A DNA stretch of 45,400 bases from Candidatus Pseudoscillospira falkowii (GTDB taxonomy: Bacteria > Bacillota > Clostridia > Oscillospirales > Oscillospiraceae), in contig CAJFFX010000019.1 in the NCBI GenBank assembly GCA_904374485.1, forward strand, positions 1 to 45,400, in the 5' to 3' direction. This document shows positions 3,983 to 28,563 of this stretch, one piece after another (the stretch's first letter is position 1; each line of letters starts with the position of its first letter). The position numbers and the translations under genes were made by a program. Under the pieces are notes generated by a model, which worked only from the letters and a program-made list of their open reading frames with translations, made no database searches and was not told where the DNA came from.

Positions 3983-4021
3983 GCAAAATACTCCCTGCCG
4001 CCTATGGCGGCAGGGAGCATT
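3983..4021. repeat. Hairpin repeat copy R1 (GCAAAATaCTCCCTGCCGCC-TAT-GGCGGCAGGGAGCATT)
   Basis: Matches R2 at 4948-4986 over 39 bp with one mismatch; lies directly downstream of glgP. The T-tract is degraded relative to R2. Confidence 0.85.
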
Positions 4022-4155: not shown

Positions 4156-4557
4156 ATGGCGATTTCAAATATGAAAGCGCTGATCCCCGGCGAGCTTCAT
4201 CTAGTGTGGGATTTTATTTTAGATGTTGAGAATTACACTGCGTGGAGAAGCGATCTGAGTAAGACAGAAGTTATCAGCGACAAGCAGTTTATCGAATATA
4301 CCAAAGACGGCTGCCCTACGACTTTTACCGTAACGTTTGTCGATCCATACAGACGATGGGAATTTGATATGGAAAACAGTTATATGAAGGGGCATTGGAT
4401 CGGTGTTTTTACGGATAAAGGAAATGAAACCGAAATAGATTTTACGGAGCGGGTGGAAGCAAAGAAATGGCTACTGAAGCCCTTTGTAAAGGCCTACTTG
4501 AGAAAGCAGCAGGCACAGTTTGCCACGGATATAAGAGGGGCATTGAAAGGAATGTAA
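4156..4557 (+). CDS. SRPBCC (START/Bet v1-like) family protein
   Basis: 133 aa; polyketide-cyclase/SRPBCC-like pattern (WDFILDVENYTAWRSDLSKTEV...TEIDFTERVEAKKW...LRKQQAQFATDIRGALKGM); RBS AAGGAGG upstream. Confidence 0.7.
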   Translation: MAISNMKALIPGELHLVWDFILDVENYTAWRSDLSKTEVISDKQFIEYTKDGCPTTFTVTFVDPYRRWEFDMENSYMKGHWIGVFTDKGNETEIDFTERVEAKKWLLKPFVKAYLRKQQAQFATDIRGALKGM

Positions 4558-4560
4558 ACG

Positions 4561-4893
4561 ATGAAAGATATGATAGGATACTGCGGGCTGGACTGCGAAA
4601 AATGTGACGCGTACATAGCGACCGCCAATGACGATCCGGCTTTGCGGGAGAAAACGGCGAAGCTGTGGGCGGAGTTGAATCACGCTCCCATTTTGCCGGA
4701 ACATATTAACTGTGAGGGTTGTCGTATGAACGGAGCGAAAACGGTGTTTTGCGACAGCCTGTGCGGGATTCGTAAGTGCGCATTAAATAAAGGCGTTTCC
4801 ACCTGCGGAGACTGTCCGGAATTAGAGAGTTGCCCTGCTGTTGGAGAAATCCTCGAAAATAACCCGGCTGCTTTGGCGAATTTGAAAGGATAG
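4561..4893 (+). CDS. DUF3795-type cysteine-rich protein
   Basis: 110 aa; starts MIGYCGLDCEKCDAYIAT with conserved Cys pairs (CEGCR, CGIRKCA, CGDC). Confidence 0.75.
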   Translation: MKDMIGYCGLDCEKCDAYIATANDDPALREKTAKLWAELNHAPILPEHINCEGCRMNGAKTVFCDSLCGIRKCALNKGVSTCGDCPELESCPAVGEILENNPAALANLKG

Positions 4894-4947
4894 AATAGTG
4901 ATCACGGAACGATTGTTATGAAATAGCGCGAGCCTTTTTTGATAAGC

Positions 4948-4986
4948 GCAAAATGCTCCCTGCCGCCTATGGCGGCAGGGAGCATT
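4948..4986. repeat. Hairpin repeat copy R2, bidirectional terminator-like
   Basis: AAAATGCTCCCTGCCGCC-TAT-GGCGGCAGGGAGCATTTT perfect stem with A/T flanks, between convergent genes; near-identical to R1. Confidence 0.85.
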
Positions 4987-5000
4987 TTTTGTGCACGGCG

Positions 5001-5714
5001 TCATGCGGCGCCGTTTCGGGCGAGATAGGCGGCGGGATCCACGGCGACGCCGCTCTGCAGCACGGTGAAATGGAGATGGGGGCCGACGGCCTCCTCCAGC
5101 AGGGCCGTGCTGCCCACGGCGCCGATCACGTCGCCGGGGCTGACGGTGTCGCCGGCGGACACGGCCGCCGGGCTCTGCAGCGAGGCGTAGCGCAGCTCGC
5201 AGCCGTCGCCGCAGTCCACGGTCACGGTGGTGCCCATCCAGTAGTCGTCCACCACGGACGTGACTTCGCCGGCGGCGGCCGCCGTTACCTGGGCGCCCTC
5301 CGCGGCGGCGATGTCGATGCCGTCATGGGTGCGCCAGTCGCCCATGGTCTCGCTGAACAGCAGCTCCTCCATGCTGAAGGGGGTGACGGTCTCGCCGGAA
5401 AGCGGGGCGAGGACCCGGGTGTCCCGGGCTTCTTCCTCCGCCTCCACCGGGGCGGTGGCGGAAACGCTGACGCTCGGGGCGGCCGGCGTTTCCGTATCCT
5501 CCTGACTCGGCGGCTCCGTCTCTGCGGCCGGGTCGTGCTCCGGCTGCTGGGCCAGGGGGACCTCCTGGCCGGCGGGGGTTTCCGCCGGCCGGTTGTTCAT
5601 GATGGCGGCGTAAATGAAATAGCCCGATACTCCGATGATGGCGATCGCCAGGAGCAGGACTATGTAGAAGCCTGCTCCGTTGAGAAACGCGCTGAACCTG
5701 TCGTTGAATTTCAT
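5001..5714 (-). CDS. M23 (LytM) peptidase-domain membrane protein, SpoIIQ-like
   Basis: N-terminal TM (FYIVLLLAIAIIGVSGYFIYAAI), LytM motifs THDGIDIAA and GPHLHF, W-THDGID context typical of SpoIIQ-like proteins. Confidence 0.8.
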   Translation of the reverse strand: MKFNDRFSAFLNGAGFYIVLLLAIAIIGVSGYFIYAAIMNNRPAETPAGQEVPLAQQPEHDPAAETEPPSQEDTETPAAPSVSVSATAPVEAEEEARDTRVLAPLSGETVTPFSMEELLFSETMGDWRTHDGIDIAAAEGAQVTAAAAGEVTSVVDDYWMGTTVTVDCGDGCELRYASLQSPAAVSAGDTVSPGDVIGAVGSTALLEEAVGPHLHFTVLQSGVAVDPAAYLARNGAA

Positions 5715-8078: not shown

Positions 8079-8852
8079 TTATTCCTGATTTGCGGCGTTG
8101 ATGATGTCCACGAACTGGTCGCTCTTCAGCGCGGCGCCGCCGATGAGGCCGCCGTCGATATCGGGCTGGGCCAGGAGTTCCGCGGCGTTGCCGGGGTTCA
8201 TGCTGCCGCCGTACTGGATGGTGATGGACCGGGCGATGCGCGCGCCGTACATGTGGCGGATGGTGGCGCGGATGAAGGTGCAGACCTCGCCGGCCTGTTC
8301 GGGGGTGGCGGTCTTGCCGGTGCCGATGGCCCAGACGGGCTCATAGGCGATGACGCACTTGCGCAGCTTGTCGGAGCTGACGCCGGCCAGGGCGGACTTC
8401 ACCTGCAGGGAGATCAGGTCCATGGTGACGCCCAGTTCCCGCTGCTCCAGGCTTTCGCCCACGCAGATGATGGGATGCAGCCCGGCCTCCAGGGCGGCGT
8501 GGACCTTTTTGTTGACGGTGATGTCGGTCTCGCCGAAGTACTGGCGGCGTTCGCTGTGGCCGATGATGACGTATTTCACGCCCAGGTCCTTGAGCATATC
8601 GGCGGAGACTTCGCCGGTATAGGCGCCGCTCTTTTCATAGAACACGTTTTCTGCGCCCACGGACACGCGCATGTCCTTGAAGGCGCGCATGGCGGTGGGG
8701 ATGTTGACGGAGGGGACGCAGACCAGCACGTCGCACCACTTGGCCTTGGGCATGATGGCTTTCAATTCCTCGGCGAACTGTTTGGTTTCGGATGCGGTCT
8801 TGTTCATCTTCCAGTTGCCGGCGATGATGGTTTTTCGGTATCTGCGGTTCAT
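8079..8852 (-). CDS. tpiA: Triosephosphate isomerase
   Basis: 257 aa; [54 protein letters not shown]. Confidence 0.98.
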
Positions 8853-20310: not shown

Positions 20311-20567
20311 GCTTTGCGCGCCGGGACGGAGCATGCCGCGCAGGGAAAGGAACTTGTGTGCAGAATGCACAAAAATGGGCCGAAAAAATTGGAATAAAAA
20401 ACGCCGTGGTTTTTATTTACATAAAATTACAATTTGACGCGATAAAAACAAATATCGGGCGAAAATATGGGATAAAACGAACAAGAACGTGTAAATTTCG
20501 TCTTTATATCAAAAAAATGTTAATAATATTTTTTCGCCGCCCGCACAAAAAACTGAGCGGCAAATAG

Positions 20568-20595
20568 TTGAAAATTACCAAAACTGTGCTATAAT
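20568..20595 (+). promoter_or_regulatory. Candidate sigma-A promoter for atoDA
   Basis: TTGAAA - 16 nt - TATAAT, with TG one base upstream of the -10. Confidence 0.6.
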
Positions 20596-20666
20596 ACAAG
20601 CATAGATTGCATGGAAGGAAAATGTGGAGTAGTTCCATGTGAATAAAAATGGGAGGTAAAAAATTC

Positions 20667-21347
20667 ATGGCTAAAGTTGTATCTATGAACGAGGCTCTGG
20701 CTCAGGTCAAAGACGGCATGACCATCATGGTCGGCGGTTTCCTGAGCGCCGGCGCCCCCAACGAAATTCTGCATGCGATCGCAGAGAGCGGTGTGAAGGA
20801 CCTGACGGTGATCTGCAACGATGGCGGCATGCCCCAGCGCGAGCACAGCCTGGCTGAAATGATCCACAACGGTCAGGTGGCACACCTGTGGGCGACCCAT
20901 ATCGGCATGAACCCCGAGGTCGGCCAGAAGATGAACGACGGCTCCATGAAGGTCACTCTGGTTCCCCAGGGTTCCATGGCTGAAAAGATCCGTGCAGGCG
21001 GCTACGGCCTGGGCGGTATCCTGACCCCCACCGGTCTCGCCACCCCTGTGGGCGAAGGCGCTGAGGACGTCGGCGGCACCAAGAAGGAAGTCATCACTAT
21101 CGACGGCAAGGAGTTCCTGCTGGAGCGTCCTCTGCGCGCTGATCTGGCGCTCATCTACGGTTCCACCGCTGATAAGTACGGCAACGTGAAGATCCACGGC
21201 GATGCCCGGAACTTCAACACCGTGATGGCTGCTGCTGCGGACACCGTGATCTGCCAGGCCGACGAGATCATCGACATGATGGATCCCGATGAGGTCCTGA
21301 TCCCCGGTGTTCTGGTTGACTACATTGTGGATGGAGGTAACAAGTAA
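20667..21347 (+). CDS. atoD: 3-oxoacid / acetoacetate-type CoA-transferase subunit A
   Basis: MAKVVSMNEALAQVKDGMTIMVGGFLSAGAPNEILHAI...; CoA-transferase family I alpha subunit; RBS GGGAGG; stop overlaps the next ATG. Confidence 0.92.
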   Translation: MAKVVSMNEALAQVKDGMTIMVGGFLSAGAPNEILHAIAESGVKDLTVICNDGGMPQREHSLAEMIHNGQVAHLWATHIGMNPEVGQKMNDGSMKVTLVPQGSMAEKIRAGGYGLGGILTPTGLATPVGEGAEDVGGTKKEVITIDGKEFLLERPLRADLALIYGSTADKYGNVKIHGDARNFNTVMAAAADTVICQADEIIDMMDPDEVLIPGVLVDYIVDGGNK

Positions 21348-22000
21348 TGGAAAAGGCTATGATCAAAGGCTATATTGCCAAGAGAGTTGCAAAAGAATTT
21401 AAGGATGGCGATTTCGTCAACCTGGGCATCGGCCTGCCCACCATGGTGCCTGCCTATCTGCCCCCCGATGTTCACGTGATCCTGGAAGCCGAGGTCGGCA
21501 TGGCCGGCCAGGGCGGCAAGCCCGAAGTCGCTGACCCCAACGTGGTCGACGCCGGCGGCCAGCCCGCCTCCATCGCTCCTGGCGGTGCGTTCATCGATTC
21601 CGCCACTTCCTTCGGCCTGATCCGCGGCGGCCACGTGAATGCCACCGTTCTGGGTGCTCTGCAGGTCGATGAAAAGGGCAACCTGGCCAACTGGATCATC
21701 CCCGGCAAGATGGTTCCCGGCATGGGCGGCGCTATGGACCTGTGCGCCGGCGCCAAGAACGTCATCGTCGCCATGGAGCACACCCAGAAGGGCAGCCCCA
21801 AGATCCTGAAGGAGTGCACTCTGCCCCTGACCACCAAGACCTGCGTCACCAAGATCATCACCGAGATGGGCGTGATCAACGTGACCGACAAGGGCCTGGA
21901 GCTGGTTGAGATCAACCCCGAGTTCACCGTCGAGCAGGTTCAGGCCGCCACCGAGGCGACCCTGATCGTCTCCCCCGATCTGAAGCCCATCGAGGACTGA
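21347..22000 (+). CDS. atoA: 3-oxoacid / acetoacetate-type CoA-transferase subunit B
   Basis: YIAKRVAKEFKDGDFVNLGIGLPTMVPAYLPPDVHVILEAEVGMAGQG; family I beta subunit; 1-nt overlap with atoD. Confidence 0.92.
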   Translation: MEKAMIKGYIAKRVAKEFKDGDFVNLGIGLPTMVPAYLPPDVHVILEAEVGMAGQGGKPEVADPNVVDAGGQPASIAPGGAFIDSATSFGLIRGGHVNATVLGALQVDEKGNLANWIIPGKMVPGMGGAMDLCAGAKNVIVAMEHTQKGSPKILKECTLPLTTKTCVTKIITEMGVINVTDKGLELVEINPEFTVEQVQAATEATLIVSPDLKPIED

Positions 22001-22034
22001 TTTTCGGCTGCTTAACGATACACAATAGCGCTTC

Positions 22035-22068
22035 AAATGCGAACCGGCACTGCCGGTTCGCATTTTTT
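22035..22068 (+). terminator. Terminator after atoA
   Basis: AAATGCGAACCGGCA / TGCCGGTTCGCATTT stem then TTT. Confidence 0.8.
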
Positions 22069-22131
22069 ATGCTGAAAATTGCCTTTCCGGGCATGATCGT
22101 CGCCTTCGGCCCATACAATGGGGCTGTCAGC

Positions 22132-23043
22132 ATGGGCGAAAGGGAGAGAGCGGTTATGAAAAGGTGGAAAAGGAAAAATGCGGCGCCGTCGCTGTTTGGC
22201 GCGCTGAAATGGGTGCTGCTGTGGATCGGGATCGCCCTGCTGTGCGGCGCGGCGATTACCTGTTTTTGGGACAGCGCCCGGGGTATGGAATTCTATGCGG
22301 GGTATCTGATCGAACTGAGCCTGAGCATGGATAACCTGTTCGTGTTCCTGTCGATTTTCACCGCCTTCGGCATCCCGGAGCACGCCCGGCACCGGGTACT
22401 GCACTGGGGCATTCTGGGGGCGGTGGTGCTGCGGCTGGCGTTCATCCTGGCCGGGGTGGCGGTGGTGGAGCGCTTTTCCTGGGCCCTTTATTTTTTCGGG
22501 GCGCTGCTGATCGTCAACGGCCTGCGCATGCTGGGCGGGAAGGAGACGGAGGGCGCCGCGGCCGACGGGGTGCTGATGCGCCTGATCCGCCGTGCCGTGC
22601 CGATGACGGACCGCTTTGCCGGGGACCGTTTTTTTGTCCGGGAGCGGCGGGGGAAACGGATGGCGCGGCGTGCTACGCCCCTTCTGGGCGTGCTGCTGCT
22701 GATCGAATGCTCCGATATCATTTTCGCCATCGATTCCGTCCCGGCGGTGTTCTCGGTGTCCACCCATCCGCTGATCGTCTACAGCTCCAATATCCTGGCG
22801 GTGCTGGGCTTGCGGCAGCTGTATTTCGTGCTGGAATACATGGCGGGGCAATTCCGCTATGTGCGCTGCGGCGCGGCGCTGATCCTGCTGTTCACCGGTG
22901 GGAAGATGCTGGCAGTCCTCTTCGGCGTCCACCTGTCCACAGCCCTTTCCATCGCCGTCATTGCCGTGGTGCTGCTGATGAGCGTCCTGCTCTCCCTGCT
23001 TTCCGCCCGTTTTTTCCGGCAGCCGGGGCGGCAGGGCGGCTGA
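22132..23043 (+). CDS. TerC/Alx family integral membrane protein
   Basis: YLIELSLSMDNLFVFLSIFTAFGIPEHARHRVLHWGILGAVVLR ... LLLIECSDIIFAIDSVPAVFSVSTHPLIVYSSNILAVLGLRQLYFVL; start could also be 22156. Confidence 0.9.
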   Translation: MGERERAVMKRWKRKNAAPSLFGALKWVLLWIGIALLCGAAITCFWDSARGMEFYAGYLIELSLSMDNLFVFLSIFTAFGIPEHARHRVLHWGILGAVVLRLAFILAGVAVVERFSWALYFFGALLIVNGLRMLGGKETEGAAADGVLMRLIRRAVPMTDRFAGDRFFVRERRGKRMARRATPLLGVLLLIECSDIIFAIDSVPAVFSVSTHPLIVYSSNILAVLGLRQLYFVLEYMAGQFRYVRCGAALILLFTGGKMLAVLFGVHLSTALSIAVIAVVLLMSVLLSLLSARFFRQPGRQGG

Positions 23044-25058: not shown

Positions 25059-25228
25059 GCTTGTCTGCCTCCTGTGTTCCGACTGCCGTGGCCGGCGTTT
25101 GAAGTTTTTATAAGGAAAAGCGGGGGGATCTTCTGTGGAGTATTGTAGCACAAGCAGGAAGGGATAGCAATAAGAAAGCGGGACGGCGCGTCTGCGTCGT
25201 ATGAGGTTTGGGGGGCAATTCACTTACT

Positions 25229-25290
25229 CCGAGCATCTGAATCATCGGAGGGTGGAGCCGCCTCCTGGTCGGCGGAACCCAAAAAGAAAG
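25229..25290. repeat. Repeat element copy A (direct repeat of copy B)
   Basis: CCGAGC...GGAGCCGCC...GGCGG.AACCCAAAAAGAAAG aligns by eye to 26825-26887 with one 1-nt gap and the terminal 15 bp (AACCCAAAAAGAAAG) identical. Confidence 0.7.
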
Positions 25291-25323
25291 GACTTCCGAT
25301 CGGAAGTCCTTTCTTTTTGGGTT
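25276..25323. repeat. Perfect 48-bp palindrome
   Basis: AACCCAAAAAGAAAGGACTTCCGA|TCGGAAGTCCTTTCTTTTTGGGTT, 24-bp arms and no spacer. Confidence 0.95.
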
Positions 25324-25435
25324 GGGGCGTCAGCAATGGATATCGCTGGTTTCGCTGTTACACTATATCATACTTTGACGCGGTTAGACTAACTTATTGA
25401 GACTGACACGGGTAATCGGCGCTGCACCAGTTTTC

Positions 25436-25975
25436 TTAATTATGGGCAGCCTTTCTTTTCCTTGGTGCAAAAAGGGGTTCCATATCCACCTGTTCCAACT
25501 GCAATAGCTTTATTTTCTTCTCAATCCCACCGGCATAACCTGTCAGACTGCCATTTGCTCCCACGACACGGTGGCAAGGCACAATGATGGAGATTTCATT
25601 GTGGCCTACCGCGCCGCCTACGGCCTGTGCTGACATACGCGGCAATCCTTTCTTAGCCGCGATCTGCTTTGCAATTTCACTGTATGTCATCGTCTGACCA
25701 TATGGAATGGTACAAAGGATTTCCCATACCTCATTTTGAAAGTCTGTGCCTGTGAAATGAAGCGGTACAGTAAAGTCCGGTTCTTTCCCCGAAAAGTAAA
25801 TCGTAAGCCACTGTTTTACTTTTTCGAAAATGGGAATTTCTTTTTCCTCATGTTCCTTGTCCAGATAGAGAGCAAAATACTTTTGCCCCTCAAACCATAA
25901 GCCTGTTAAGCCAATCTCATCTGCGGCTAAAAGAATGTTGCCGATAGGGGAACGATAATGGCTGGTATACTGCAT
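25436..25975 (-). CDS. ogt: Methylated-DNA--[protein]-cysteine S-methyltransferase
   Basis: 179 aa; TDFQNEVWEILCTIPYGQTMTYSEIA, active site IIVPCHRVVGANGSLTGYAGG. Confidence 0.95.
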   Translation of the reverse strand: MQYTSHYRSPIGNILLAADEIGLTGLWFEGQKYFALYLDKEHEEKEIPIFEKVKQWLTIYFSGKEPDFTVPLHFTGTDFQNEVWEILCTIPYGQTMTYSEIAKQIAAKKGLPRMSAQAVGGAVGHNEISIIVPCHRVVGANGSLTGYAGGIEKKIKLLQLEQVDMEPLFAPRKRKAAHN

Positions 25976-25977
25976 TC

Positions 25978-26631
25978 TTACTTCCTCCTGTTCTTTTTCG
26001 GCGCATAGTCTTTCATTTCAGGGATTGTCCCGCCTGCCACAGCCCAGAGATACAAGCTTGCTGCGCTGCAATAAGGGCTGAACCGCCGCCTGTATTTTTC
26101 AAATAGCTTTCGGTCTATTTTCCTGTGGTGGTAAACCATACGAAGCCCGCGCTGGATTGCCAGATCGTCAAAGCTGAATATGTTAGGCCGCTGCAAGCAG
26201 AACAGCAAAATCATTTCCGCTGTCCATACGCCGATCCCTTTCAAAGAAGCCAGTGCCTGTATTGCTTCGTCGTCCGGCAACCGGGAAATTTCCTGCAAAG
26301 CAAATTCCCCGGTTTTCACTTTTTCAGCGAAATCTTTGATGTATTCAGCTTTTCGGAATGTTATTCCCGAAGACTGCAGCGTGTCTATATCGGCTGCCGA
26401 AAGGCTCTCTGCAGTCACTTCTCCAAACTGTGCTTTCATTCTTGCCCAAATCGTTGCCTGTGCCTTTGTTGATATTTGCTGGCCGATGATGTGATGCACC
26501 ACGGAAGAAAACAGGTCGGGATCTACCTCGCGGTCAACGTGGCCAACCTTATCGATAACAGCAGCTAAGATCTTGTCCCTGCCTTTCAAATATTCCACTT
26601 CAGTTTTTCCATAAGGGAAGTACAATCGCAC
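25978..26631 (-). CDS. DNA-3-methyladenine glycosylase II family (AlkA-like, HhH-GPD)
   Basis: 217 aa; HHIIGQQISTKAQATIWARM, HhH motif LASLKGIGVWTAEMILLF, catalytic region FSFDDLAIQRGLRMVYH. Confidence 0.92.
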   Translation of the reverse strand: MRLYFPYGKTEVEYLKGRDKILAAVIDKVGHVDREVDPDLFSSVVHHIIGQQISTKAQATIWARMKAQFGEVTAESLSAADIDTLQSSGITFRKAEYIKDFAEKVKTGEFALQEISRLPDDEAIQALASLKGIGVWTAEMILLFCLQRPNIFSFDDLAIQRGLRMVYHHRKIDRKLFEKYRRRFSPYCSAASLYLWAVAGGTIPEMKDYAPKKNRRK

Positions 26632-26824
26632 CCCTCCGCTCTGTCACGCCTGTTGCGTTTATACGCTATGATGTCTTCTTGTTTTCCAACATTTTTCTCT
26701 GTACAGTTTATGATAGTTTATTGTACTGTACTGGCTCCTTGTGTGTCAAGCCGCGCCGCTTTTGCGGCGTACAAGCGTTTTGGCCGTAGGCCAAAACCTT
26801 GGCGCAGGGGCGGCTTTGCCGACC

Positions 26825-26887
26825 CCGAGCGTTCGGATACCGAAGGGGGGGAGCCGCCCTTTTGGGCGGCGAAACCCAAAAAGAAAG
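26825..26887. repeat. Repeat element copy B (same orientation as copy A)
   Basis: CCGAGCGTTCGGATACCGAAGGGGGGGAGCCGCCCTTTTGGGCGGCGAAACCCAAAAAGAAAG; contains hairpins TTCGG-TAT-CCGAA and GCCGCCC-TTTT-GGGCGGC. Confidence 0.7.
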
Positions 26888-26966
26888 ACAGGTGGGACTT
26901 GAACCCACACGTTGTTGCCAACAACGGATTTTGAGTCCGTCGCGTCTGCCATTCCACCACACCGGC
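26885..26966 (-). tRNA. tRNA-Leu(CAA)-like gene with non-pairing 3' acceptor strand (probable tRNA pseudogene)
   Basis: Minus strand GCCGGTG TG GTGGAATGGCAGACGC G ACGGACTCAAAATCCGT TGTTGGCAACAAC GT GTGGGTTCAAGTCCCAC CTGTCTT: intact D, anticodon, variable and T arms, but 5' GCCGGTG cannot pair with 3' CTGTCTT. Confidence 0.8.
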
Positions 26967-27168
26967 GTGCAGAAAAAGCGTACTTATTATAGCCCGAAGT
27001 CCTGCAAAAAGCAAGCCTTTTCTTCAAAAAGACAAAAATGGGCGGAAGGTCCGCTCTGCTGCGAAAAACGACTACACAAAGGAAAGAAAATGTGGTACAA
27101 TGCTAAATTAGAATCGTATGCTATAATGTTTTGCGGCGGGAACGGCGCATCTGCGAGGAGGTCAAACG

Positions 27169-28563
27169 GTGAAGCTGCGGTGCTTTCTGAAAAAGTGGTA
27201 TGTGCTCGGCGCGGCGCTCAGCCTGGCGCTGGCTCTGTCCGGCTGCATGTTTGCGGTGTCGCCGGACGATCTGTTCGCCCTGCCGAAGCTGCCGGAGGAG
27301 TACGTGGATCTGGAAACGGAGATCGACGGGCTGCTCAAGAGCGGCTATGAGTACGCCGCGCCCACCGAGGGCGAAAATATCCAGATGGTGCAGATGGTGG
27401 ACCTGGACGGTGACGGTACCGACGAGGCGCTGGCTTTCCTGCGCAGGACGGGGGACATCAAGCCCCTGCGCATCGTGATCTTCCAGCAGAGCGAGGAGGG
27501 CTACCACATCGCGGCGGAGATCCAGGAGAGCGGCACATCCATCGAGCGGGTGGAATACCAGGACCTGAACGGCGACGGCAGCCAGGAACTGATCGTCAGC
27601 TGGAGCATCGTCTCCGCCGACGGCGGGAAAAACGGCGCGATAGACGAAACTGCCGGCGAGCGCGCCCTGAGCAGCGTGGTGACGGTGTACAGCCTGGACC
27701 GCTATAACGAGCGGAAGATCCTGGATACCTCTGCCAATTACTATACCATCACCGACCTTGACAAGGACGGCGCGCCGGAACTGATCCTGATCAGCGGCGG
27801 CCCTTCGGGCACCTGCAACGCCATGGCCTACCAGTGGAACGCCGGCGCTATGGAACTGGTCAGCGCCGTCAAGCTGTCCGTGCTGCCGGCCGCGCTGGAC
27901 GAGGTGCGCGTGGGCGGCCTGAGCGATGGACAGCAAGCCCTGTTCGTCACCGGCCGGGTCAACGATCAGAACTTGATGACCGACATCCTGGTGTGGCGGG
28001 ACCGGGTGCTGGTCAACTGCACCATGGACGAGCAGACCGGCATGAGCCGCCTGGTTTACCGCGACGCTTCCGTCCGGGCCCGGGATATCAACAAGGACGG
28101 CGCGCTGGAGCTGCCCATCGCCTATGAGCTGCCAAAGCTCTCGTCGGAGGACCCGTCCTACTGGGGCATCAACTGGACCTCCTTCGCCGACGACGGCGAG
28201 GGACAAGTCGTGGAAACGACGTATCACAATCTCTCGGACGGCTGGTATCTCGTGCTGCCGGAAAGCTGGAAAGACACCATTATGATCACGGACGTGGCCC
28301 TTTCCGTGGGCGAGCGGGCCGTCACCTTCGGCGTTTACCAGGGGGACGCGGCGCCCCTGGAGATCCTGACGATCTATACGGAGACCGGCGACAGCCGCGA
28401 ATACAAGGCCACCAAGGGCGAGCGCTTTGTTCTGGCCCGGCAAGCCACCACCGTATACGCCGCGGAATTCCTCCCCGGCAGTGCCGACTGGGAGGGGGCT
28501 ATGAGCGAAGACGCCCTGCGGGAAGCCTTCCATATGGTCCAGGCCGAGTGGTATTTGAAATGA
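27169..28563 (+). CDS. Lipoprotein with Asp-rich FG-GAP/VCBS-like repeats
   Basis: GTG start with RBS GAGGAGG; lipobox LALSGCMF; four D-x-D/N-x-D-G motifs (DLDGDGTDE, DLNGDGSQE, DLDKDGAPE, DINKDGALE). Confidence 0.75.
   Translation: MKLRCFLKKWYVLGAALSLALALSGCMFAVSPDDLFALPKLPEEYVDLETEIDGLLKSGYEYAAPTEGENIQMVQMVDLDGDGTDEALAFLRRTGDIKPLRIVIFQQSEEGYHIAAEIQESGTSIERVEYQDLNGDGSQELIVSWSIVSADGGKNGAIDETAGERALSSVVTVYSLDRYNERKILDTSANYYTITDLDKDGAPELILISGGPSGTCNAMAYQWNAGAMELVSAVKLSVLPAALDEVRVGGLSDGQQALFVTGRVNDQNLMTDILVWRDRVLVNCTMDEQTGMSRLVYRDASVRARDINKDGALELPIAYELPKLSSEDPSYWGINWTSFADDGEGQVVETTYHNLSDGWYLVLPESWKDTIMITDVALSVGERAVTFGVYQGDAAPLEILTIYTETGDSREYKATKGERFVLARQATTVYAAEFLPGSADWEGAMSEDALREAFHMVQAEWYLK

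Follow-up and report, generated by a model that had tools for sequence, protein, structure and literature searches.

The window analyzed here comprises 45,400 nucleotides of contig C19 from the Candidatus Pseudoscillospira falkowii genome (1.89 Mb, 86% complete, 99 contigs). It harbors two adjacent minus-strand genes for the repair of alkylation damage, namely ogt (25436..25975), encoding a methylated-DNA-protein cysteine methyltransferase of 179 amino acids (Pfam PF01035, 7.5e-33, and PF02870), and an alkA-type gene (25978..26631), encoding an HhH-GPD DNA glycosylase of 217 amino acids (PF00730, 1.2e-15). Together with their promoter and 3' flank, these genes form a horizontally acquired minus-strand unit at 25318..26752, delimited approximately by GC content and by the DNA held in common with a Ca. 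Avispirillum locus (L109). The enclosed interval has a GC content of 46.6% vs 60–61% in the flanks. It is bordered by two related repeats, termed copy A and copy B, and B is followed by a minus-strand tRNA-Leu(CAA) gene (26891..26968; ARAGORN and comparison with the congener G002), which as assembled ends after the T-stem. ogt and alkA are the sole genes between B and A. The description of the interval in the initial annotation as an AT-richer minus-strand gene pair lacking an integrase was borne out.

The same annotation had interpreted A and B as direct copies of a structured element of about 62 bp sharing a 15-bp end. The 15-mer AACCCAAAAAGAAAG indeed occurs in both copies in direct orientation, with exact plus-strand matches at 25276–25290 and 26873–26887, and the reported GGAGCCGCC..GGCGG hairpin and CCGAGC start were both found in the sequence. 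A and B are related beyond chance (expect value 1.9e-6 in a whole-genome search, supported by end-to-end alignment). The idea of a shared end had to be revised, since a third, inverted copy of the 15-mer lies at 25309–25323; this reflects a perfect palindrome of 48 nt in A (25276..25323, assigned to neither strand), of which the 15-mer forms one arm and which, on the minus strand, resembles an intrinsic terminator of ogt. The 62 bp likewise proved to be merely part of a larger element of approximately 140–190 bp, designated E, covering the end of its first hairpin (H0) and the first link. Copy A (25173..25323, minus strand, left end approximate), delimited by a core match, the alignment to B and an ortholog in G002, represents a degraded full-length element with an internal deletion. 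It comprises the first hairpin (the palindrome), the GCCGCC link hairpin and remnants of the hairpins H1 and H3. Copy B (26754..26890, minus strand) is close to the consensus and is devoid of the 5' arm of the first hairpin and of most of the last G+C hairpin.

E is a dispersed, covarying hairpin element. Side-by-side comparison of copies revealed, read from the tRNA into the element, the order H0, a short link, TGCTC, H1, TGCGCC, H2, TAC and H3, often followed by an extra G+C hairpin. H0 is a perfect hairpin of the form CC[A/C]N..N[T/G]GG, the 3' arm of which is T-rich where it follows a tRNA, and the link reads GAGCCC, ATACC or GGGTTCCGCCGCC..GGCGGCTCCACCC. The remaining hairpins are GGGGCAAATGAATTGCCCC (H1), CAAGGTTTT..AAAACGCTTG (H2) and GGCGCAAAAGCGCC (H3). 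The H1–H3 core was aligned for 22 copies, from which the covariance model R1 was built. In this alignment, 95.8% of the pair cells are standard and 55 cells are double-changed vs 16 in shuffles; both signals vanish when the partners are slid against each other. As judged from the sequence, the 15 bp common to A and B correspond to the T-rich arm of H0, a predicted terminator. The notion that the 15-mer is a mere terminator tail with unrelated neighbors was rejected, since the covarying core also matches in A. R1 assigned both copies to one repeat family, as had been proposed, with scores of 85.8 bits for B (26754–26841) and 19.3 bits for A (core 25184–25245).

In the source genome (G000), R1 identified 26 core copies. 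The distribution across the order is patchy, with matches in 11 of 117 genomes: four other genomes of the source family (f1, apparently Oscillospiraceae) contain 26 (G024), 12, 9 and 1 copies, four f7/g41 genomes at least 38 each, and two other genomes 2 each. E directly follows a tRNA predicted by ARAGORN in at least 13 of 77 copies, and further copies follow tRNAs cut by contig ends. A search of the source genome with B returned a 90%-identical copy at C62 besides partial copies, and full copies were obtained from relatives, among them G002 and G025. In the plasmid collection, relatives were found only in Pusillibacter faecalis and Vescimonas fastidiosa, while phage collections yielded two short matches in human-gut phage records. 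Furthermore, the IMG/VR phage contig L209 carries two copies (4932–5012 and 8631–8713) beside phage structural genes. Within the window, only the tRNA exceeded the Rfam gathering threshold, and 13 loci yielded no credible non-tRNA Rfam match at E<=1. A regular 118-bp tandem array of four cores was observed at L242:1236–1674 (G042:C12), and in G000, G002 and G025, E is often directly adjoined by another dispersed repeat, which ends in ATATCGATTTTGACCGTCCCTTCCA (L060, L065, L066, L067, L069).

Outside tRNA sites, many copies of E lie inside protein genes, within ~100 bp of their start or end. Direct target duplications ending at the element were detected in 20 of 39 testable copies in protein genes, compared to 21 of 840 control points. 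A duplication was counted if it was 29–150 bp long, reached a local alignment score of at least 20, ended no more than 4 bp from H0 and recurred past E; a few of the 20 positives stem from tandem copies. For the control, artificial insertion points were placed in the same loci, and some of these may lie within genuine duplications. Moreover, insertion was confirmed by empty sites. G001, G002 and G024 lack E at the truB position of G000:C21, and on their uninterrupted sequence the two flanks overlap by 64, 63 and 63 bp, respectively. For the rplL insertion of G066, the empty site is provided by G128 and G042, with a flank overlap of 110 bp. The assumption that the repeat family behaves as a mobile element is thus supported by target duplications as well as empty sites. 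Since the targeted gene stays intact through the duplication, even important genes such as truB, lepA and rplL can accommodate E within the tens of bases at their start or end. At truB, E occupies the identical position in Vescimonas fastidiosa (NZ_AP023416, L211) and in the source genome (G000:C21:19000–21500, L252), each with its own duplication of ~62–78 bp (~62 bp in Vescimonas) and with empty congeners; hence, certain genes are targeted more than once or insertions are retained over time.

In addition, an inverted copy of the target junction, 8–17 nt long, lies behind E in 9 of these 20 copies. Examples are those in lepA (GCCAGCGTCGACTTGCC), rplL (GGAAGACGCCGAGGC) and L099 (CCTGATGATGGGCGC), all three of which span the insertion point. 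Chance was rejected as an explanation, with shuffle p<0.05 in 9 of the 20, mostly at the test floor of 0.005 (1/201); in several of the remainder, the second target copy follows E directly and the inverted-junction test is inapplicable. Such a footprint would result if the target were cut with a stagger of tens of bases and synthesis then proceeded by fold-back or template switching. It is tentatively proposed that E constitutes an undescribed class of non-autonomous mobile element, whose 40–110 bp target duplications and inverted 8–17 nt target sequence at the 3' end would point to fold-back or template-switching (possibly target-primed) insertion, and which would spread to tRNA 3' ends, gene starts and ends, and phage genomes in Oscillospirales. 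A tandem pair of E in the lepA start at L248:813–1018 (G000:C94) displays a duplication of ~80 bp, and its inverted junction copy measures 17 nt.

Copies A and B differ in age. The nearest relatives of B lie at other loci, i.e., G000:C62 (90% identity) and G002:C34:106–243 (85% over 26750–26890), and do not include A. An ortholog of A is present in G002 at C61:6–114, where it lies immediately behind the 3' end of a tRNA-Leu(CAG) and is not accompanied by ogt-alkA. The spacing of this ortholog to the left-hand gene block is also conserved (window 20567–22922, corresponding to G002 C61:1947–4282). Since the G002 ortholog follows tRNA-Leu(CAG) and not ogt, A was already at the site before alkA-ogt. 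A is probably an old copy, inherited at the site behind tRNA-Leu(CAG), and B a younger, independent family member. Neither A nor B is bordered by a target duplication of the kind that E makes in protein genes. The two repeats are thus not the mutual close relatives, arrived together with their cargo, that delimit a composite transposon or repeat-bounded cassette.

On the other side, G001 and G002 share synteny with the right-hand block, which includes tRNA-Leu(CAA) and an FG-GAP protein gene at 27169. Beyond this tRNA, all three genomes differ. The window contains B and alkA-ogt; G002 carries 3.7 kb with a gene read as a phage-type amidase, followed by tRNA-Leu(CAG) at the contig end; and G001 has a small gene read as a serine recombinase. 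Between tRNA-Leu(CAA) and A, the sequence therefore varies among all three members of the genus that are available, and ogt-alkA, which the initial annotation had suspected to be a foreign insert, is missing from this site in both congeners. For G002, we infer that contigs C35 and C61 are joined through tRNA-Leu(CAG), because the alternative contig starting with this tRNA, C34, is syntenic with G000:C74.

The tRNA-Leu(CAA) does adjoin B, as previously noted and as predicted by ARAGORN, with the correction that the gene is incomplete. It stops after the T-stem (CCCACC|TGTC, ..GGGTTCAAGTCCCACC|TGTCTTTCTTTTTGGG), where G002 has ..CCCACCACCGGCACCA, so that the tRNA lacks the 3' strand of its acceptor stem and B lacks the 5' arm of H0. 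No second copy of tRNA-Leu(CAA) was found in the assembly. Either a microhomology deletion or the loss of a perfect hairpin during assembly would fit this structure. A similar loss of half a hairpin was observed in G025:C1. An insertion flanked by direct repeats of the tRNA end was also considered and rejected, no such repeat being present within 700 bp beyond B.

The alkA-ogt operon itself has a history of horizontal transfer. The deduced AlkA protein is most closely related to that of Ca. Avispirillum faecium (L109; 94% amino acid identity), followed at 87–89% by those of Mordavella, Mediterraneibacter, Acutalibacter, Lachnospiraceae, Erysipelotrichaceae and an Avitreponema (spirochaete) MAG. 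In the same-family genomes G017 and G033, DNA identity is only 68%. Common DNA with L109 spans 25314–26759, from the promoter to the 3' flank. Most close relatives possess an extra gene of ~110 codons between alkA and ogt (counterpart L109:4657–5014), whose product reads like an ABM-type monooxygenase. This gene is missing in the window at 25975–25978, having been lost at a repeated GGAGGAA ribosome-binding site. When R1 was applied to 57 further sequences, almost exclusively ogt/alkA neighborhoods, no core of E was found. There is good evidence that the operon spread horizontally, apparently by a route independent of E. The ends of the foreign unit coincide exactly with the truncated end of B and the first bases of A's palindrome, which is suggestive of an involvement of the repeats. 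L109 retains GCGGCGC beside the unit, resembling B's end in 9 of 11 bases, and this likeness may represent a trace of E in the donor.

Based on these results, the locus probably represents the coincidence of three separate things, namely scattered copies of E (A and B), a variable interval and a horizontally acquired alkA-ogt operon. E would be a structured, mobile-like element that occurs in gut Oscillospiraceae and related bacteria and becomes established behind tRNAs and in gene ends, and its H0 presumably acts as an intrinsic terminator after tRNAs. Copy A would have been inherited behind tRNA-Leu(CAG), with B arriving later and independently. In this lineage, the interval would then have gained B and the alkA-ogt operon, which lost its small middle gene. 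The operon runs directly into the hairpin of A, which is predicted to serve now as its terminator.

According to the initial annotation, ogt-alkA would instead have moved as part of a unit with A and B at its ends, mobilized in trans by the machinery of E. This reading draws on the membership of both copies in one family, their direct orientation, the coincidence of the foreign-unit boundaries with both repeats and the mobility of E elsewhere. It is nevertheless very improbable and largely refuted by the A ortholog in G002, which occupies the site without cargo. A and B also differ in age and decay, E was not detected near the other ogt-alkA loci tested, and the loci read contained no further two-E cassette. 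If correct, the cassette reading would imply repair genes mobilized in trans, which the evidence does not show. A passive role of the repeats is less remote, but still unlikely. In this scenario, the operon came joined to B, or repeat and hairpin sequences served as the site of crossover or end-joining, without the two copies having transposed; the same joining may also have restored the AACCC arm of A's H0 from the complementary GGGTT. The position of the unit boundaries exactly at both repeats is in line with this scenario, as is the perfect complementarity of A's H0 over 24 bp, which exceeds the share provided by the ancestral tRNA CCA end in G002. However, no donor with B attached was found, and the B side has only 7–9 bp of possible homology to L109.

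The coincidence of separate events is also to be weighed against an assembly artefact at the junction between the tRNA and B, which is possible, if rather doubtful. In that case, B and ogt-alkA would lie beside another tRNA-Leu, or the tRNA would be intact and a perfect hairpin lost. The tRNA-Leu ends at a microhomology with one hairpin arm lost, it has no other copy in the assembly, and contigs of the congeners break at these tRNA-Leu and E sequences, all of which speaks for such an artefact. Both outer flanks, however, agree with the arrangement in G002, so that the overall neighborhood is probably right.

Short mobile repeats usually generate target duplications of a few bp. E resembles small interspersed and MITE-like repeats (pneumococcal BOX, RUP and SPRITE, as well as Correia and ERIC) in being short, non-coding, base-paired, patchily distributed and present in many copies; as for MITEs, numerous dispersed non-coding copies and empty sites with a target duplication were found, the length of the latter being unusual. 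It differs from them in its GC-richness, the 40–110 bp duplications and the inverted junction copy, and no terminal inverted repeats of its own were noticed. Like REP/BIME units, which are linked to RAYT transposases, E is palindromic and composite with tandem copies, but no GTAG-type REP motif was noticed, and it inserts in gene starts and ends with long duplications. Its H0 resembles intrinsic terminators, being a perfect hairpin with a U-rich run directly after tRNAs, and the SPRITE repeat of pneumococcus likewise resembles terminators (PMC3049150). Unlike a plain terminator, H0 leads into a core of three covarying hairpins that recurs throughout the genome. In comparison to integron cassettes with attC sites, the locus also presents genes between structured direct repeats; however, there is no cassette array and no integrase between A and B, copy A was inherited independently, and an attC-like core was not noticed on reading the copies of E. 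The position of foreign genes at the 3' flank of tRNA-Leu, variable in three congeners, is reminiscent of tRNA-targeting integrative elements, but the tRNA is not restored, a direct repeat of the tRNA 3' end and an integrase are absent, and the locus was therefore not assigned to this class.

E thus looks like a non-autonomous small interspersed repeat, set apart by its long duplication and inverted junction copy. It is this footprint which makes E, rather than the cassette, deserving of a study of its own. Filled and empty sites of E exist in public genomes, and the enzyme and reaction behind its footprint represent a testable question. We know of no element with such a footprint. A description of E was not found in the searchable literature, which largely excludes subscription journals and hence provides weak evidence of novelty.

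A second repeat-bounded cassette had been suggested at 4–5 kb of the window. Two repeats do flank two genes there, and they resemble duplicated terminators more than copies of E. These are the terminator-like hairpins TGCTCCCTGCCGCCTATGGCGGCAGGGAGCA at 3989–4019 and 4954–4984, which are near-identical, with one mismatch; no such pair would be expected by chance. The genes enclosed by them (4156–4893) are of the SRPBCC type and DUF3795.
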